Part shown: piece by piece, positions 14,518 through 29,332 of the stretch
How positions within the stretch are numbered: position 1 is the stretch's first letter
How the letters are laid out: each line of letters starts with the position of its first letter
Origin: a bacterium
GTDB taxonomy: Bacteria; Fidelibacterota; Marinisomatia; Marinisomatales; JAHJCW01
Direction of reading: 5' to 3'
DNA length: 32,961 nucleotides
Assembly: GCA_030606865.1 (NCBI GenBank)
Contig: JAUWFQ010000008.1
Span: 1-32,961, forward strand
Notes under the pieces: model-generated
The model's database searches: none
What the model was told of the DNA's origin: nothing
The model's input: only the letters and a program-made list of their open reading frames with translations
Program-made: the position numbers and the translations under genes

Positions 14518-15804
14518 TTAATAACAAACCTTTCCTATTAATTCAAATTCATTTGTATCAGTAATTAATACTTTTTCAAATTTACCGATTTCTGATGCTC
14601 CTGCAACTCTAACAATATTATCTACCTCCGGAGAATCAAACTCAGTACGTCCGATTATGTAATCTTCATTTATTTCGTCAATCAAAACAGTCATTGTTGA
14701 ATTAATTAATGATTCATTTTTTTCTAACATTATTGAATTTTGTAATTCTTGTAGTTTGAATTTTCTATCATTTTTTAACTGAAGTGGAACATTATCTATT
14801 AAATTTTCAGCTAATGTTCCTTCTTCTTCGGAATAAGTAAATATACCAAGTCGATCAAATTGAATTTCTTCAATAAAATCGCACACTTCTAAAAAATCAT
14901 CTTTAGTCTCGCCTGGATAACCAACAATAACGGTTGTGCGTAAACGAATATCAGGAATTGCTTCCCGTAATCCAACTATCCGGTTACGGATTCCATCTTT
15001 ACCTAAACCTCGTCGCATAGAAGATAATATTTTATCGGAGGCATGTTGGATTGGTATATCAAGATATTTGCACAGCTTATTCATTCCGGCAAGCGAATCA
15101 ATAATATTTTGTGATAAATGTGCCGGATGTGCATAATGAAGTCGGATCCACGTTAATGGATCGCCGATTTGATCTAACTCAGTCATCAATTTACCAAGAC
15201 GAGTTTTCTTGGGAAGGTCCCATCCGTACGAAGTTGTATCTTGCGCAATTACTAATAATTCCTTTACTCCATTATTAACAAGTCTTTCTGCTTCGGTAAT
15301 AATAACATTAATAGGGCGGGATATTTGCTTGCCGCGCATCAATGGAATACTGCAAAAAGAGCATCCGTTATCACAGCCTTCGGCAATTTTTAAATAGGCA
15401 TAATGGCTCGGCGTAAGCAAAGATCGCCAATAGAGAGGATCATCCTTAATAAATGGTTTCCCGGTTAAAAAAGATACAATTTGTCTATGATCATTAACAC
15501 CGAAAAATCGATCAACTTCCGGTAGTTCTTTCTGTAATTGCCCTGGATAACGTTCGGATAGGCAACCCATAACAATCAATTGTTGAAGTTTTCCTGTCTT
15601 TTTTAATGCTGCGGCTTCAATTATTGAATCAATTGATTCCTCCCGAGCTTGATCTAGAAATCCACAAGTATTAATTATAATTGTATCAGCTTCTTCAGGT
15701 ATTGATGTAATTAAGAATTTAGACTGTTTAAGTCCACCAATTAATATTTCAGAATCGACTAAATTTTTAGCACAACCGAGACTAAGCAAGTATATTTGCT
15801 TCAT
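14518..15804 (-). CDS. rimO: Ribosomal protein S12 methylthiotransferase
   Basis: Radical-SAM enzyme that adds a methylthio group to a conserved aspartate of ribosomal protein S12. The 428 residues show the N-terminal UPF0004 domain with C11, C47 and C81 for the auxiliary cluster, the radical SAM motif C144-x3-C148-x2-C151, and a C-terminal TRAM domain. The opening YLLSLGCAKNLVDSEI is the RimO form and separates it from MiaB. No ribosome binding site is obvious. It is separated from ftsY by 151 bases holding a repeat-like hairpin pair, which may thin transcription from the upstream block. Confidence 0.95.
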   Translation of the reverse strand: MKQIYLLSLGCAKNLVDSEILIGGLKQSKFLITSIPEEADTIIINTCGFLDQAREESIDSIIEAAALKKTGKLQQLIVMGCLSERYPGQLQKELPEVDRFFGVNDHRQIVSFLTGKPFIKDDPLYWRSLLTPSHYAYLKIAEGCDNGCSFCSIPLMRGKQISRPINVIITEAERLVNNGVKELLVIAQDTTSYGWDLPKKTRLGKLMTELDQIGDPLTWIRLHYAHPAHLSQNIIDSLAGMNKLCKYLDIPIQHASDKILSSMRRGLGKDGIRNRIVGLREAIPDIRLRTTVIVGYPGETKDDFLEVCDFIEEIQFDRLGIFTYSEEEGTLAENLIDNVPLQLKNDRKFKLQELQNSIMLEKNESLINSTMTVLIDEINEDYIIGRTEFDSPEVDNIVRVAGASEIGKFEKVLITDTNEFELIGKVCY

Positions 15805-15864
15805 TATATTTTTACATTATCCGTTGAAAATTTTAATTTAAACTAAGAATTTCATTTCTTTTTA

Positions 15865-15921
15865 TCCCTCTAAATCCCTCTTCAAAGGGGGACAATGTCT
15901 CCCCTTGAGGGGAGACACAAA
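15865..15921. repeat. Dispersed-repeat-like double hairpin
   Basis: Two neighbouring palindromes: TCCCTCTT/AAGGGGGA at 15875-15892 (one G-T pair) and the perfect TGTCTCCCC/GGGGAGACA around TTGA at 15896-15917. On the minus strand it reads as a variant of the CCCCCTTTGAAGGGGGATTT type of dispersed repeat that I know from several Bacteroidota and cyanobacterial genomes. Its local GC content stands out from the surroundings. Only one copy is visible here, so repeat status rests on resemblance. Confidence 0.6.
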
Positions 15922-15955
15922 GAAATAATATAGTTATTATATTTTCGATACACAA

Positions 15956-16840
15956 TTAATCAATACCGATAATCGACTTTATATAATCATTTGCATTAAA
16001 AGGAATTAAATCATCCAATTTTTCACCAATACCAATATACATAACTGGAATTTTTAATTCATCAAATAAAGGGAATGCGATTCCGCCTCTTGCGGTGCCA
16101 TCCATCTTAGTTAGAATTACTCCATCGATTTTAAACAATTGTGTAAATTCGTGTGCTTGAATAAGTGAATTTTGTCCAAGACTTGCGTCAATAGTCAGTA
16201 GTGACACAATATTGAATTCAGGAAAATGTCGATTAACTAATCGAACCATTTTTTCAAGTTCGGACATCAAATTTTTATATGTATGTAATCTTCCTGCTGT
16301 ATCAACAATTACCACATCAGAGTTATTCTTTTTAGCGGATTTTAATCCATCAAATAGTACAGCGCTTGGATCACGGGATTGAGCGTTGCTAACTATCTTC
16401 ATGTTTAATCTGCGTGCCCATTCCTCTAATTGCTCAGCAGCCGCTGCGCGATAGGTATCAGCACCAATCATAAATATTTTTAAATTTTGTTTACTTAATA
16501 GATTAGCAAGTTTTGCAGTTGTAGTAGTCTTTCCTGTACCATTCACGCCAACCAAAAATATTACTGATTTTGGAGGAATAACCGGTATAGTATTTTGATT
16601 CGGTAGATGAGTTAATAAGATTTCTTGAATTAATCTGATAGGGTTATCAGTTTTATTCTTACTTAACTTATCAATGATAACATCCGTTGTACTTATCCCT
16701 ACATCAGAAGTTATTAAGCTCTCTTTCAGTTGAAGTATCAAAGATTCGTCATTTTTTTTTCGCTTTAGTGCTTTGAGTGGCTTGCTTATTGAACTTCGAG
16801 TTCTACCCAAAGCCTTAAATATCTTGGCTCCAATTTTCAT
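15956..16840 (-). CDS. ftsY: Signal recognition particle receptor FtsY
   Basis: GTPase receptor that docks the SRP-ribosome complex at the inner membrane for co-translational insertion. The 294 residues comprise only the NG domain: N-domain helices (about 5-80), P-loop G98-V-N-G-T-G-K-T105, DTAGRLHT (G3), TKMDGTARGG (G4 and its follow-on) and a C-terminal GEKLDDLIPF. The acidic A-domain of Escherichia coli FtsY is absent, as in many bacteria, and the basic N-terminal helix (KIFKALGRTRSSISKPLKAL) may provide membrane contact. The start lies 5 bases after the CDP-alcohol phosphatidyltransferase stop, so the two are co-transcribed. Confidence 0.96.
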   Translation of the reverse strand: MKIGAKIFKALGRTRSSISKPLKALKRKKNDESLILQLKESLITSDVGISTTDVIIDKLSKNKTDNPIRLIQEILLTHLPNQNTIPVIPPKSVIFLVGVNGTGKTTTTAKLANLLSKQNLKIFMIGADTYRAAAAEQLEEWARRLNMKIVSNAQSRDPSAVLFDGLKSAKKNNSDVVIVDTAGRLHTYKNLMSELEKMVRLVNRHFPEFNIVSLLTIDASLGQNSLIQAHEFTQLFKIDGVILTKMDGTARGGIAFPLFDELKIPVMYIGIGEKLDDLIPFNANDYIKSIIGID

Positions 16841-16845
16841 GTTGC

Positions 16846-17412
16846 TTATATTTTTTTTAGTTCAACAAGGAATCTTTTCATATATAATAACCAACTAATC
16901 ATCAGCAATGCGAAAGCTAACCATAAAGAAATATTTTTTAAATATTCTGTAGCTGGAAATTGAGGAATATGTAAAACTAATGTAATTGCAACAACAGCAG
17001 TTGCCCATTTCCCTGGTTTATTAGCACTATTTACAAAATGTGTATGATTTATTAAATATAGTCCGGGTAATGCAATAGTTAGATATCTAATAATAAAGAA
17101 TATAAAAAACCACATCGGAAAAATACCTGATAAAACTAAATAGAAAGTAACTGACACAATAACAATAGAATCGGCAAGGGGGTCCAACCACATTCCAATA
17201 TGTGTAACCTCATGTGCTCTACGGGCAATAAAACCGTCCAGCGCATCAGATGCAATAACAATAATAATTAGAATAAATAAAGTCACACTTGATTCCGGTT
17301 TTGGCAAATAATAAATAATCGGTATTACCAAGATTGCTCTAAGTAAGCTTATAAAATTAGCTAACGTTAATATTCGTTCAGGGTCTGTTATCTTTGATTT
17401 ATTATTTTCCAT
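16846..17412 (-). CDS. CDP-alcohol phosphatidyltransferase (PgsA-like)
   Basis: A 188-residue inner-membrane enzyme that swaps CMP on CDP-diacylglycerol for an alcohol. The family motif is complete: D56, D59-G60, A63-R64, G73, D77 and D81 with exact spacing, and about five hydrophobic segments surround it. The N-terminal LTLANFISLLRAILVIPII resembles phosphatidylglycerophosphate synthase, so glycerol 3-phosphate is the likely acceptor, but phosphatidylserine synthase or another class cannot be excluded from sequence alone. It starts 4 bases after the ABC ATPase stop and is followed closely by ftsY, in an envelope-synthesis run. Confidence 0.9.
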   Translation of the reverse strand: MENNKSKITDPERILTLANFISLLRAILVIPIIYYLPKPESSVTLFILIIIVIASDALDGFIARRAHEVTHIGMWLDPLADSIVIVSVTFYLVLSGIFPMWFFIFFIIRYLTIALPGLYLINHTHFVNSANKPGKWATAVVAITLVLHIPQFPATEYLKNISLWLAFALLMISWLLYMKRFLVELKKI

Positions 17413-17416
17413 ATTG

Positions 17417-18691
17417 TTATAATTTTATTATTGAGTCGCAAATACTACTAATATACCTATGATCATGTGAAATTAATATTAAATGTTTTTTTTCTAAATA
17501 ACTAATAAAATAGGAATGTAAATTTAACTTTTGCTGACTGCCCATTCCAAATGTTGGCTCATCTAATATTAACAAATCATAATTACAATTTGACAATATA
17601 ATAATTAGCGCGATTCTAAGCGTAGTCCATGATAAATCCAATGCTAAAATATCCTTGATATCTTCCCAAGCTATGTTATTTAAGCACAATTTGGAATTTA
17701 TCTCGCTTAAAAGTGAGCTATTCAATTTTCCATTAATTATTAATAGTTGTACAAACTCTTCTAACGTCATAATTCCCAATAACTTTTCAGGAAATTGATC
17801 AAGATATCCAATTTCAATATCTTTAATATTGGTACAATTTAATTTTATAGAACCAGAAATTGGTTTTTCTAATTCTAATAATAATGACGCAAGTGTTGAT
17901 TTTCCCGAACCATTATTACCAATTATTCCAAGACATCTAAAATTATTTACTAATTCTGAATAGTCATTAAAAATTGGATTTTTGCAATCATAATGAAAAT
18001 AAAGTTTGTTTATTTCTAAATTAAATTCGCCTTTCTGTAGGTTTGCTTTTGGTAATTCATTTAATTGAAGTGGCCCTATTTTTGAAAATTCTACGGGAGT
18101 TAATTTCCATTTTGTGTTCCCATACTTTAAATCACTTTCATCTGAAGTAAACCAAATAATAACAATTTCATTTTGTTGCTTTATAAAGAATTGGTTAACA
18201 ACTATTTTTTTCATTTTATCACTTAAAAATGATAATGCATCATCAATTAAGATTATACTTGTAGTTAACAAAAATGTTGTTGAAATATTCAATAATTCCT
18301 TTTCACCACCACTTAACGTAACAGGATGTCTATCGGTATTTACAGAAAACAATAATTTATTTTTTGCATCATTTAATTGATGTCTAATAAATTTTGTATC
18401 ATTTGAATTACATTCCAGACTAAATGCTAATTCATTTTCTATCGTGTTACTTATGATTTGTAAATCAGGATTCTGAAGAATAACTTTTACATCTTTTTGA
18501 CTGTTTATCCTATCTATATTAAATAATGCTGACTTATCTTGCTCTTCATTTGCTAATAGATTAATTAGCTCAGATTTACCAACGCTGCTTTCTCCATAAA
18601 TAACGTGTAATCCCGGTGAAAATTTGTAATCTTGAAATTGTAGATATTTAGATTTTTTAATTTGTAATGAAAAGGAAAAAGGTTCAGTCAC
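17417..18691 (-). CDS. Tandem ABC ATPase, ECF-type, with one degenerate site
   Basis: Two ABC ATPase domains in one 424-residue soluble chain. Domain 1 has Walker A (33-40), Q73 in an ILQNPDLQII motif typical of energy-coupling-factor ATPases and the LSGGE signature (126-130), but Walker B ends D150-D151 rather than D-E and no H-loop histidine is present. Domain 2 has Walker A (258-266), Q299, D377-E378 and H409, but its signature is LSWTT. Pairing gives one consensus and one degenerate ATP site. No EcfT or S-component is encoded nearby. The GTG at 18691 is chosen: GGAG lies 8 bases ahead and the overlap with waaA is 8 bases. An ATG at 18736 would add 15 residues and overlap by 53. Confidence 0.85.
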   Translation of the reverse strand: MTEPFSFSLQIKKSKYLQFQDYKFSPGLHVIYGESSVGKSELINLLANEEQDKSALFNIDRINSQKDVKVILQNPDLQIISNTIENELAFSLECNSNDTKFIRHQLNDAKNKLLFSVNTDRHPVTLSGGEKELLNISTTFLLTTSIILIDDALSFLSDKMKKIVVNQFFIKQQNEIVIIWFTSDESDLKYGNTKWKLTPVEFSKIGPLQLNELPKANLQKGEFNLEINKLYFHYDCKNPIFNDYSELVNNFRCLGIIGNNGSGKSTLASLLLELEKPISGSIKLNCTNIKDIEIGYLDQFPEKLLGIMTLEEFVQLLIINGKLNSSLLSEINSKLCLNNIAWEDIKDILALDLSWTTLRIALIIILSNCNYDLLILDEPTFGMGSQQKLNLHSYFISYLEKKHLILISHDHRYISSICDSIIKL

Positions 18692-19967
18692 GAATGATAC
18701 TCCGCACAACCCTGGTTGCCGAACCAATATTATCATGGATTACTTGAGTTGCGGACAAACTTGCGTCTAAAAAACGATTTTTATCATTTAATAAAATTTT
18801 CATTATGTCATAAAATTCTATGCCATTATTTATTGAAAAACCACCTCCTGATTTCAATAATTCTATCGCCTCCTGCGATTTTCTGTACTTAGGACCAAAA
18901 ATTACCGGTAGTCGAGCAATAGCTGGTTCCATAACATTATGTATGCCACTGGAAAAACCTCCACCGATGTAAGCAAGCTGTCCCTGCCAGTAAAATTTTG
19001 ATAATGCACCAACTACAGCAAGAATTACAACTCTACCATTTTTAATTTTGGTTGTTTTTTTTGATTTGATTATTAACGAATTATATCCTTGCGATTCAAA
19101 CATTTGAATTGATGATTGGATATATTTTTCTGATGGTTCATGCGGTACCCATAAAATGCAAAGTTCTTCATCCTCTTCCATAAGCTGAAATATCGAATTA
19201 ATAATCTTCTTCTCGTCTTCCGGCCATACGCTTCCTATGATAAGTCTTTTATCACGCATTAAAACTGTTATTGTACGATTTTTCGTAAATTTGTCAGCTT
19301 TTTCTTTTACTCTATCATATCTAGGATTACCCAGTACGCGTACGATAGGTCTATTTTTTAATGGTAATATTTTATTTAGCTGGTAATTATCTTCTTCTGT
19401 TATAGTGTAAATTGTAGAAAATGATTGATAAACAGTTCTATAAAAGTTTTTTATTACAGGAAGTAATTTAGATGTACTATGATCAAATCTTGCTGCGAAT
19501 ACATTCGTATGTATTTTGCGTCTATTAGCTAACCAAACAAGGTTTGGCCAGATATCGTATGATGCAAATATTAATTTTTTTGGTTTGATAATTTTAAGTG
19601 CCCTGCGGATTGACCAAATAAAATCGAATGGTAAATATATCTTGCAATCAATGTTGCGATCATCAACATTTTTGTATCCAGATGGAGAGAAAAAACTCGC
19701 TATTATATAGCATCCTTTTTCCACTTCTTTTATTCCTCTTAAAACCGGTTTTACTTGTTCAAATTCTCCATGTGAAGCAGAATGAAACCAGTATATAGAT
19801 TCCTTTCTATCCCAACTTCGTAAAGTGTTTTTTAAGATGTCAATAGTATGAAAACGACCGACTAATCCGTCTCTCAGTTTTTTATTAAATATTGCACCTA
19901 AACTAACTAAAATAAATATTAGTGGATAAATTATTATGTTATAGACAAGGAACCAAAAATATATCAT
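18684..19967 (-). CDS. waaA: 3-deoxy-D-manno-octulosonic acid transferase
   Basis: Transfers one or more Kdo sugars from CMP-Kdo to lipid A precursor on the inner face of the inner membrane. The 427 residues match WaaA/KdtA: a hydrophobic N-terminal segment (about 2-25), WFHSASHGEFEQV with catalytic-base candidate E68, the NPRYDR nucleotide-proximal motif, and the C-terminal GGFSSGIHNVMEPAIARLP donor-binding region (GT30 family). How many Kdo units it adds cannot be read from sequence. It follows the family 9 glycosyltransferase with a four-base overlap (ATGA-type), so the two act in the same lipopolysaccharide core pathway. Confidence 0.95.
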   Translation of the reverse strand: MIYFWFLVYNIIIYPLIFILVSLGAIFNKKLRDGLVGRFHTIDILKNTLRSWDRKESIYWFHSASHGEFEQVKPVLRGIKEVEKGCYIIASFFSPSGYKNVDDRNIDCKIYLPFDFIWSIRRALKIIKPKKLIFASYDIWPNLVWLANRRKIHTNVFAARFDHSTSKLLPVIKNFYRTVYQSFSTIYTITEEDNYQLNKILPLKNRPIVRVLGNPRYDRVKEKADKFTKNRTITVLMRDKRLIIGSVWPEDEKKIINSIFQLMEEDEELCILWVPHEPSEKYIQSSIQMFESQGYNSLIIKSKKTTKIKNGRVVILAVVGALSKFYWQGQLAYIGGGFSSGIHNVMEPAIARLPVIFGPKYRKSQEAIELLKSGGGFSINNGIEFYDIMKILLNDKNRFLDASLSATQVIHDNIGSATRVVRSIIRD

Positions 19968-21007
19968 AGTAAGCCGCCTTCAGTAATCTTACTAAATACA
20001 ATTTTTGGAGTGATGGTCGTCATACAATATTGTTCATCACGATAACATTTTCGTTTTCCGGTTTGGGAACATGGTCTGCACCAAATATCGTTATTTTCTA
20101 CTGTTATGGAGTCTTTACGATTAACGCCAGCTCCCGTTTCACGAGATGTTGGACCTAAAATCGCAACTACTCTTTTTCCTAAAGCTTCGGCAGCATGCAC
20201 TAATCCTGTGTCCGCACCAATAACATATTTTGAATTTGCAATAATTGACATTGATTCTCTTAAGCTTGTCTTCCCTTGTAAATTTATAATAGTTGGATCG
20301 CATTTAGCGATTTCATTACAAATATTATCATTTTTTCCACCTAAAATTACAAAATCAGCATTTTCTTGATTTTTCAAATCCGTAAGCAACTTACAATAAT
20401 TATCTATCAACCATGTTTTTTGAGGCCATGCCGCTCCGGGAATAATTGTGATGTATGGTTTTTTAACACTATTCCTCTTTAGCATCGTTTCCGCTTGTTT
20501 TTTTTCAATTTCAGATATAAATAATTCCGGTAATGGATATTTTTTATCATTCATCCATTCCTTAATTGGCTGGTGTAGCAATTTTAATTGAGAAAAATCT
20601 GCTGGGAAGATATTTTTCCTAAATCTAAATAATAAAAATCTCTTCCATCGTGGTTTTTTTAAATATTTTTTTGGAATATTTCTAATTATGAATCGAATTA
20701 TTTTTGACCTAAGGGAATTATGAAAATCAATTACCAAATCATAATCTGATTTATTAATCCGTTTCCCCGTTTTTAATAATTTTATAAAACCGGCATTTCT
20801 ATCAAAAGGAATAATTCTATCAACATATTTATTACCTTCCAAAATTGGAGCAAAATTAATAAGAGTGAGAAAATCAATTTTAGCTGAAGGAAAAATACTT
20901 TTTATGGTTTTCAGAGGTGACATTGTTAATACAATATCTCCTATTGAGCTAAATTTTATTACTAATATTCGTTTAGGATTGGCAATCTTATTTATCGCGA
21001 ATGCCAT
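19964..21007 (-). CDS. Family 9 glycosyltransferase (heptosyltransferase-like)
   Basis: A 347-residue cytoplasmic glycosyltransferase of family GT9 (ADP-heptose:LPS heptosyltransferase). Evidence is the N-terminal ILVIKFSSIGDIVLTMS, IIPGAAWPQKTW at about 188-199, and GADTGLVHAAEALG with D266 and H271 in the donor-binding part, followed by ILGPTSRETGAG. A four-cysteine cluster (C310, C313, C321, C328) matches the CxPC region of WaaF/RfaF relatives. Heptose transfer fits the downstream waaA and the rfaE1 gene in the window, although the exact acceptor is uncertain. The start overlaps the polyprenyl synthase stop by 20 bases and has no visible ribosome binding site, so coupled translation is likely. 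Confidence 0.9.
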   Translation of the reverse strand: MAFAINKIANPKRILVIKFSSIGDIVLTMSPLKTIKSIFPSAKIDFLTLINFAPILEGNKYVDRIIPFDRNAGFIKLLKTGKRINKSDYDLVIDFHNSLRSKIIRFIIRNIPKKYLKKPRWKRFLLFRFRKNIFPADFSQLKLLHQPIKEWMNDKKYPLPELFISEIEKKQAETMLKRNSVKKPYITIIPGAAWPQKTWLIDNYCKLLTDLKNQENADFVILGGKNDNICNEIAKCDPTIINLQGKTSLRESMSIIANSKYVIGADTGLVHAAEALGKRVVAILGPTSRETGAGVNRKDSITVENNDIWCRPCSQTGKRKCYRDEQYCMTTITPKIVFSKITEGGLL

Positions 21008-28630: not shown

Positions 28631-29332
28631 ATGAGTCCAAGAAGTAAGCTTATTTATAGAATTGAAAATCTAAAGAAAACGTATGGTGATCGTACTGTTC
28701 TTCAAGTAGGTAGATTACAATTTCATCCTGGTACAATTTATGGATTAATTGGACCAATAGGTTCTGGTAAAACGACATTATTAAAAATTATGTCAGCTTT
28801 GGAGAAACCGACTTCAGGCATAATCGAATACGATTCGGAACCTTTTCAAACCAATTGGTTTGGTAAATTAAAAAAATATTCGGATATCTATTTTGCAAAT
28901 TCAGATTTGCTGCAACAAAATTTATCTATAAGTCAAATTGCTAGAAAATATTATTCGAAAAAAATTGACAATATTAGAACAAAGTATTTTTCAAAAGGCA
29001 ATAAAGAAAAATTATGGACAATCCCATTAAATTCTTTATCACCGGGTGAAAAATCTTGGATAAATTGCATATTGGCAGTCGAAGGCGACCCACGGGTATT
29101 GTTGATTGATGATTATGGAACTTTAATGGATTATGAAATGGAATTCGAATTTCGTAAACGAATACAAAAGATGAACAGGGATTTAGGAACCACAATAATT
29201 CTAGCTTCCCCGACCGATCAAATCATTAAGAAATTTGCTTCCGTAATCATTTATATGGATAATGGTCATGTATCAAAAATCCGATCCGGTGCATCGAAAT
29301 CATTTAAACGGACTCGACCAACTAGAAAGTAA
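28631..29332 (+). CDS. Lone ABC ATPase with altered catalytic residues
   Basis: A 233-residue ABC domain with no membrane part. Walker A (GPIGSGKTT, 41-49) and signature LSPGE (136-140) are intact, but the Walker B glutamate is aspartate (D160-D161-Y), the Q-loop position holds Asn90 (IYFANSD), and the H-loop histidine is missing (LASPTD, 192-196). The C-terminus is short and strongly basic (KSFKRTRPTRK). ATP binding is likely; normal hydrolysis is doubtful. No permease gene is adjacent. It lies 40 bases after trxB and 2 bases before the HDAC-family gene, within a compact run. A regulatory or non-transport role is possible. Confidence 0.8.
   Translation: MSPRSKLIYRIENLKKTYGDRTVLQVGRLQFHPGTIYGLIGPIGSGKTTLLKIMSALEKPTSGIIEYDSEPFQTNWFGKLKKYSDIYFANSDLLQQNLSISQIARKYYSKKIDNIRTKYFSKGNKEKLWTIPLNSLSPGEKSWINCILAVEGDPRVLLIDDYGTLMDYEMEFEFRKRIQKMNRDLGTTIILASPTDQIIKKFASVIIYMDNGHVSKIRSGASKSFKRTRPTRK

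Follow-up and report, generated by a model that had tools for sequence, protein, structure and literature searches.

In this 32,961-nt stretch of DNA (the window), we found a minus-strand gene (17417..18691) whose product is, judged from its sequence, a fused EcfA1-EcfA2 ABC ATPase of a vitamin-type ECF importer of marine bacteria (Neomarinimicrobiota). The motifs of its two ATP sites, compared across related lineages, describe a naturally asymmetric, stepwise-reduced ECF motor. We are fairly confident of the overall reading, namely that this fused ecfA1-ecfA2 gene encodes the ATPase of a group II-like ECF micronutrient importer with one hydrolysing site.

The ATPase gene and its start codon

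The longest ATG open reading frame of the gene (17417-18736) encodes 439 aa, its ATG lying 45 bases upstream of the GTG codon at 18691. The first 16 residues of this form had a pLDDT below 50 and were unstructured in the predicted model. In a 76% identical orthologue from the same genus (L003), a stop codon lies inside the ATG extension and the GTG is conserved. Because of these findings, GTG, giving a 425-aa protein, is the better start. Residue numbers refer to the 425-aa form, i.e. the number in the 439-aa form minus 15.

The gene belongs to a tight minus-strand run (14518-21007) with the order heptosyltransferase-kdtA-ecfAA'-pgsA-ftsY-rimO. The upstream kdtA gene (Kdo transferase; 18684..19967, minus strand) overlaps the start of the ATPase gene by 8 nt, and a pgsA-like gene for a CDP-alcohol phosphatidyltransferase (16846..17412, minus strand) follows directly downstream; both served as conserved synteny markers. 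The window also carries a lone ABC ATPase gene (28631-29332, plus strand; 233 aa) next to a thioredoxin-reductase-like gene. Its product has an LSPGE signature and a D-D Walker B, an H-loop His is not evident, and no permease gene adjoins it.

Family identity

The preliminary description had regarded the ATPase as ECF-type, and domain-wise searches of the PDB and NCBIfam agreed. Domain 1 (18044..18691, minus strand) matched only EcfA1 chains of the PDB at E≤1e-8, and its best NCBIfam model was TIGR04520 (ECF_ATPase_1). For domain 2 (17420..18040, minus strand), the best NCBIfam model was TIGR04521 (ECF_ATPase_2; EcfA2). The scores of both domains were far under the equivalog cut-offs, which makes the protein a divergent EcfA member.

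Domain 2 alone scored better against ABC-F proteins than against EcfA2 in the PDB, and in NCBIfam an ABC-F model almost tied with TIGR04521. The profile of the whole ATPase family also scored well against ABC-F chains, and no permease gene adjoins the ATPase gene. These observations would fit a soluble twin ATPase of the ABC-F or ABCE type that acts on ribosomes or another cytoplasmic target instead of forming part of a transporter. We consider this very unlikely, given the exclusive EcfA1 matches of domain 1 at the above threshold, the ECF models that rank best for each domain, and the co-occurrence of the ATPase with EcfT and an S-component (see below). Moreover, relatives with the same neighbouring genes are ecfA1-ecfA2 pairs, and the long interdomain linker of ABC-F proteins is absent: the two domains nearly abut within 425 aa, and the model has no long helical linker.

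One consensus and one degenerate ATP site

On the translated sequence, the motifs of both domains were located exactly where they had first been described (all on the minus strand). Domain 1 has the LSGGE signature (residues 126-130; 18302..18316) and lacks, as claimed, both the Walker B Glu and the H-loop His. Its Walker B has D150-D151 (18239..18244), with Asp for the catalytic Glu, and Ser183 (18143..18145) occupies the position of the switch His. The P-loop is retained in the Walker A motif GESSVGKS (18572..18595), and the Q-loop region reads ILQNPDLQII (18452..18481). Domain 2 shows the reported combination of an intact Walker A (GNNGSGKS; 17897..17920), a D-E-P Walker B with the catalytic Glu (residues 377-379; 17555..17563) and His409 in the H-loop (17465..17467) but a lost ABC signature (LSWTTLR; 17615..17635). 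Its Q-loop Gln lies within DQFPE (17795..17797).

A misalignment could have produced the same picture. However, alignment to PDB chains set D151 on E169 of Lactobacillus EcfA and S183 on the H-loop His of EcfA, so the altered residues have not been misplaced. The register was shown by 8bms_A, a solved EcfA1 with Gln at position 169.

In a head-to-tail arrangement, the consensus site would be formed by Walker A, D-E and His of domain 2 with LSGGE of domain 1. The other site would combine Walker A and D-D of domain 1, without His, with LSWTT of domain 2 and would thus be degenerate on both faces. Two complete ATP sites, which characterise the studied group II modules rather than the homologous family in general, were not found. 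The complementary pair of sites proposed in the preliminary description is therefore supported by the motifs and by their conservation in 39 orthologues from the same order.

The predicted model of the ATPase had a pLDDT of 87 and a pTM of 0.79. It matched the fused ATPases DppD and OppD of mycobacterial peptide importers, which likewise have two ABC domains per chain, with TM-scores of 0.72-0.74; they differ in importer class and sequence family. Such scores are too high for a single domain, suggesting that both domains likely fold back into one intramolecular head-to-tail ATP sandwich.

Conservation within the order

Among 61 genomes from the same order, 42 had an orthologue of the ATPase. 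When we examined the altered residues, the pattern was held by every one of the 39 aligned order-level orthologues. In domain 1, D150-D151 and LSGGE were each present, and the H-loop His absent, in 39/39 rows. The domain-2 signature lacked GG in 38/38 rows, and P-loop, DEP and H409 of this domain were each retained in 38/38. A second, named collection of about 70 loci, nearly all from Candidatus Neomarinimicrobiota, gave the same result. Here D-D occurred in 67/69 rows, and the two exceptions, both from remote outgroup MAGs, have D-E, a Gln in place of His, and LSLGE. On these alignments, the conserved degenerate pattern is not attributable to chance. As the degenerate site is conserved in 39/39 orthologues, we regard the protein as a variant and not as an ordinary group II module.

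Evolution of the degenerate site across the phylum

The kdtA gene was located upstream of the ATPase at 61/65 loci of the order, 6/6 loci of lineage f20 (same class) and 11/12 loci from the rest of the phylum (unfused or of f24). The corresponding numbers for pgsA downstream were 61/61, 4/5 and 14/14. Since this neighbourhood held throughout, the ATPase genes compared are orthologues. The gene order kdtA-ATPase-pgsA is thus maintained across the phylum.

Outside the class, the ATPase was mostly encoded by two adjacent, unfused genes. Their EcfA1 had D-E but usually Gln for the H-loop His, and the signatures of their EcfA2 were LSGGE, LSSGE, LSMGE or LSAGE. In f24 the genes were fused and D-E was present. 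The His of domain 1 was already replaced by Gln in most of the fused or paired relatives examined. Homologues with normal residues at the altered positions, which would have spoken against the proposal, were thus found only outside the order, in unfused pairs, indicating that the altered state is derived and not misread. In the unfused pairs of two f25 loci (L176 and L177), both H-loop His residues are Gln.

In f20, reduction has gone further. Domain 1 has neither P-loop nor Walker B and keeps LSGGE in 7/7 sequences, and domain 2 retains P-loop, DEP and (mostly) His with its signature lost. A pattern check found a single P-loop in each of all seven sequences, which ruled out an alignment error as the cause of the missing one. 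A tree of the ATPases, built without the trait columns, grouped the order with f20 in a single clade (support 100/99), apart from the unfused pairs. The graded motif states across lineages, together with this clade, indicate that the same site decayed in steps.

The f20 sequences also bear on whether both sites might hydrolyse ATP. The Walker B Asp and the altered signature could make a slow second site in an importer that is symmetric in essence, and the conservation of P-loop and Q-loop of domain 1 within the order would be in line with this. We think it unlikely, because Glu, His and the opposite signature of that site are all lost together and the sister lineage f20 lacks even the P-loop.

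Could the changes in domain 1 be pseudogene-like decay of a functionless domain? Graded motif loss across lineages would be expected from such decay. However, LSGGE, the P-loop and about 40 columns are invariant, and f20 retained LSGGE despite its P-loop loss. Furthermore, dN/dS calculated for the window against its nearest relative was about 0.27 for domain 1 and about 0.15 for domain 2, indicating purifying selection on both, so that neither domain is decaying freely. Functionless decay is thus extremely improbable.

In a pair of genomes of the order (G124 and G125; loci L212 and L213), domain 1 has decayed further, with N-N in Walker B, an altered Q-loop and LSCGE. Neither of the two genomes yielded an EcfT match.

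Membrane partners on other contigs

The preliminary description had found no membrane component nearby. This applies to the locus but not to the genome: a genome-wide search recovered both an EcfT and an S-component on other contigs. The ecfT gene (G000:C149) lies upstream of truA and overlaps it, and its product matched PF02361 over cut-off (E 1.6e-9). The profile of the EcfT family matched the crystallised EcfT 4hzu_T (E 5e-19), and the adjacency of ecfT and truA was seen at every locus checked, 26 from the order and 32 from other parts of the phylum. The S-component gene is located on a third contig (G000:C72); its product exceeded the cut-off of PF12822 and is orthologous across the order. 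With solved structures, its sole credible relative was 6fnp_A ('Membrane protein'; E 5e-4), which we take to be the ECF-CbrT cobalamin transporter entry, and a weak FolT-family match was also obtained. No riboswitch was found at the S-component, EcfT and window loci.

We determined the co-occurrence of the three components over the order (inferred N=160); as these genomes are related, not independent, and many are incomplete MAGs, p-values should not be read at face value. ATPase and EcfT were both present in 65 genomes and both absent from 77, with 10 ATPase-only and eight EcfT-only genomes. For ATPase and S-component, the numbers were 68 with both, seven and eight with one, and 77 with neither; for EcfT and S-component, they were 69 with both, four and seven with one, and 80 with neither. 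Pairwise phi values ranged from 0.77 to 0.86. Absences of the module occurred in several distinct families, among them f15, a family with small genomes. BioY is also present (G000:C95) and was dropped as a co-occurrence marker, since it occurred in only 12 genomes, three of which lacked the module. In families f22, f23, f30 and f31, relatives of the S-component were found, and ATPase and EcfT were both under the search thresholds.

ATPase and EcfT genes were never side by side in the loci examined, and no EcfT gene was found next to the unfused ATPase pairs, being located elsewhere, adjoining truA. A complex of the two proteins is thus inferred from homology and co-occurrence. In group II systems, the S-components are commonly encoded apart from the ECF module. 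Taken together, these searches indicate an ECF importer with unlinked parts and not an orphan ATPase or an exporter.

The conserved kdtA and pgsA neighbours would be compatible with an ATPase that drives an envelope process (LPS or phospholipid) in place of vitamin uptake. We judge this highly improbable, as both flanking genes are envelope housekeeping genes, EcfT and S-component co-occur with the ATPase, and separate S-component loci are nothing out of the ordinary for an importer of this type.

At the order loci examined, the S-component gene is flanked by an HD-domain nuclease-like gene and a gene of ~500 aa that belongs to no Pfam family (L083:2010-3497 on G000:C72; same place in L074-L082). 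Its product has a DWSGQYG-like motif and looks like an outer-membrane protein; it is possibly the outer-membrane partner of the uptake system.

Coupling helices of EcfT and proposed mechanism

The Arg of EcfT coupling helix 3 (X-Arg-X) was kept in 57/57 sequences. The Arg of coupling helix 2 was absent from every aligned EcfT, order and f20 included, except those of f25 (5/5), which have the canonical A-R-G. The EcfT of the order therefore does not carry X-Arg-X in both coupling helices. The L. delbrueckii EcfT docks EcfA through helix 2 and EcfA' through helix 3 (PMC10368641), so that the lost Arg belongs to the helix on the degenerate side. The correlation is based on few events, and the Arg is also absent from lineages in which EcfA1 still has D-E.

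We propose that adjacent ecfA1 and ecfA2 genes fused, so that the ATPase of this group II-like micronutrient importer is now a single chain. Hydrolysis would occur only at the site composed of Walker A, Walker B and His of domain 2 and LSGGE of domain 1. The degenerate site, with its P-loop kept, would probably hold ATP as structural glue or hydrolyse it very slowly. According to the published ECF cycle, the coupling helices bend when the ATPases close, and the S-component is expelled (PMC10368641). By homology, the one active site would shift the EcfT coupling helices each time it closes and reopens, and this movement would expel and then re-admit the S-component.

We also favour, with somewhat less assurance, a stepwise conversion of a two-site into a one-site ECF motor. 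His would have been lost first, followed by the Glu of Walker B together with the signature facing it and then, in f20, the whole P-loop. The EcfA half would have become a donor of LSGGE, EcfT would have dropped its docking Arg, and a single ATP at the EcfA' site would power transport.

Comparison with known transporters

The preliminary description had likened the ATPase to TM287/288. The likeness holds for the asymmetry of the sites: TM287/288, TmrAB, CFTR and Pdr5 combine one consensus site with one degenerate site that has non-canonical residues, among them Walker B residues and, for TM287/288, also its signature (PMC7756269, PMC5216877). It does not extend to function, since those proteins are exporters or channels with NBDs fused to transmembrane domains, whereas the chain described here consists of two ABC domains only and is, by its sequence relationships, the soluble ATPase pair of an ECF importer. 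Among exporters, degenerate sites are a familiar feature (PMC7756269). For ECF importers, none was described in the open-access papers searched, a search outside which most subscription papers fall.

In L. delbrueckii, an E-to-Q exchange at either site abolished ATPase activity and transport, so both catalytic glutamates are needed, yet cryo-EM during turnover showed the EcfA site still occupied by ATP and the EcfA' site by ADP (PMC10368641). That every close relative checked has a degenerate site is surprising, as well-studied importers fail if either site is lost. Here it appears to be precisely the EcfA-type site that evolution has disabled, with the EcfA' site retained. Natural variants reduced to different degrees make it possible to test directly how many ATPs, and which site, drive expulsion of the S-component.

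The system shares with group II EcfA-EcfA'-EcfT modules (L. delbrueckii ECF-FolT2/CbrT; L. brevis 4HUQ/4HZU) the EcfA1- and EcfA2-type domains, the QNPD Q-loop, an EcfT homologue with X-Arg-X in helix 3 and a PF12822 S-component. It differs from them in the fusion of the ATPases into one chain, the site degenerate on both faces, the lost Arg of EcfT helix 2 and the separation of the ATPase locus from EcfT. As in Bacilli, EcfT adjoins truA, and the order of the domains, EcfA1 then EcfA2, is that of the genes in the Bacilli operon ecfA1-ecfA2-ecfT-truA (PMC8046335).
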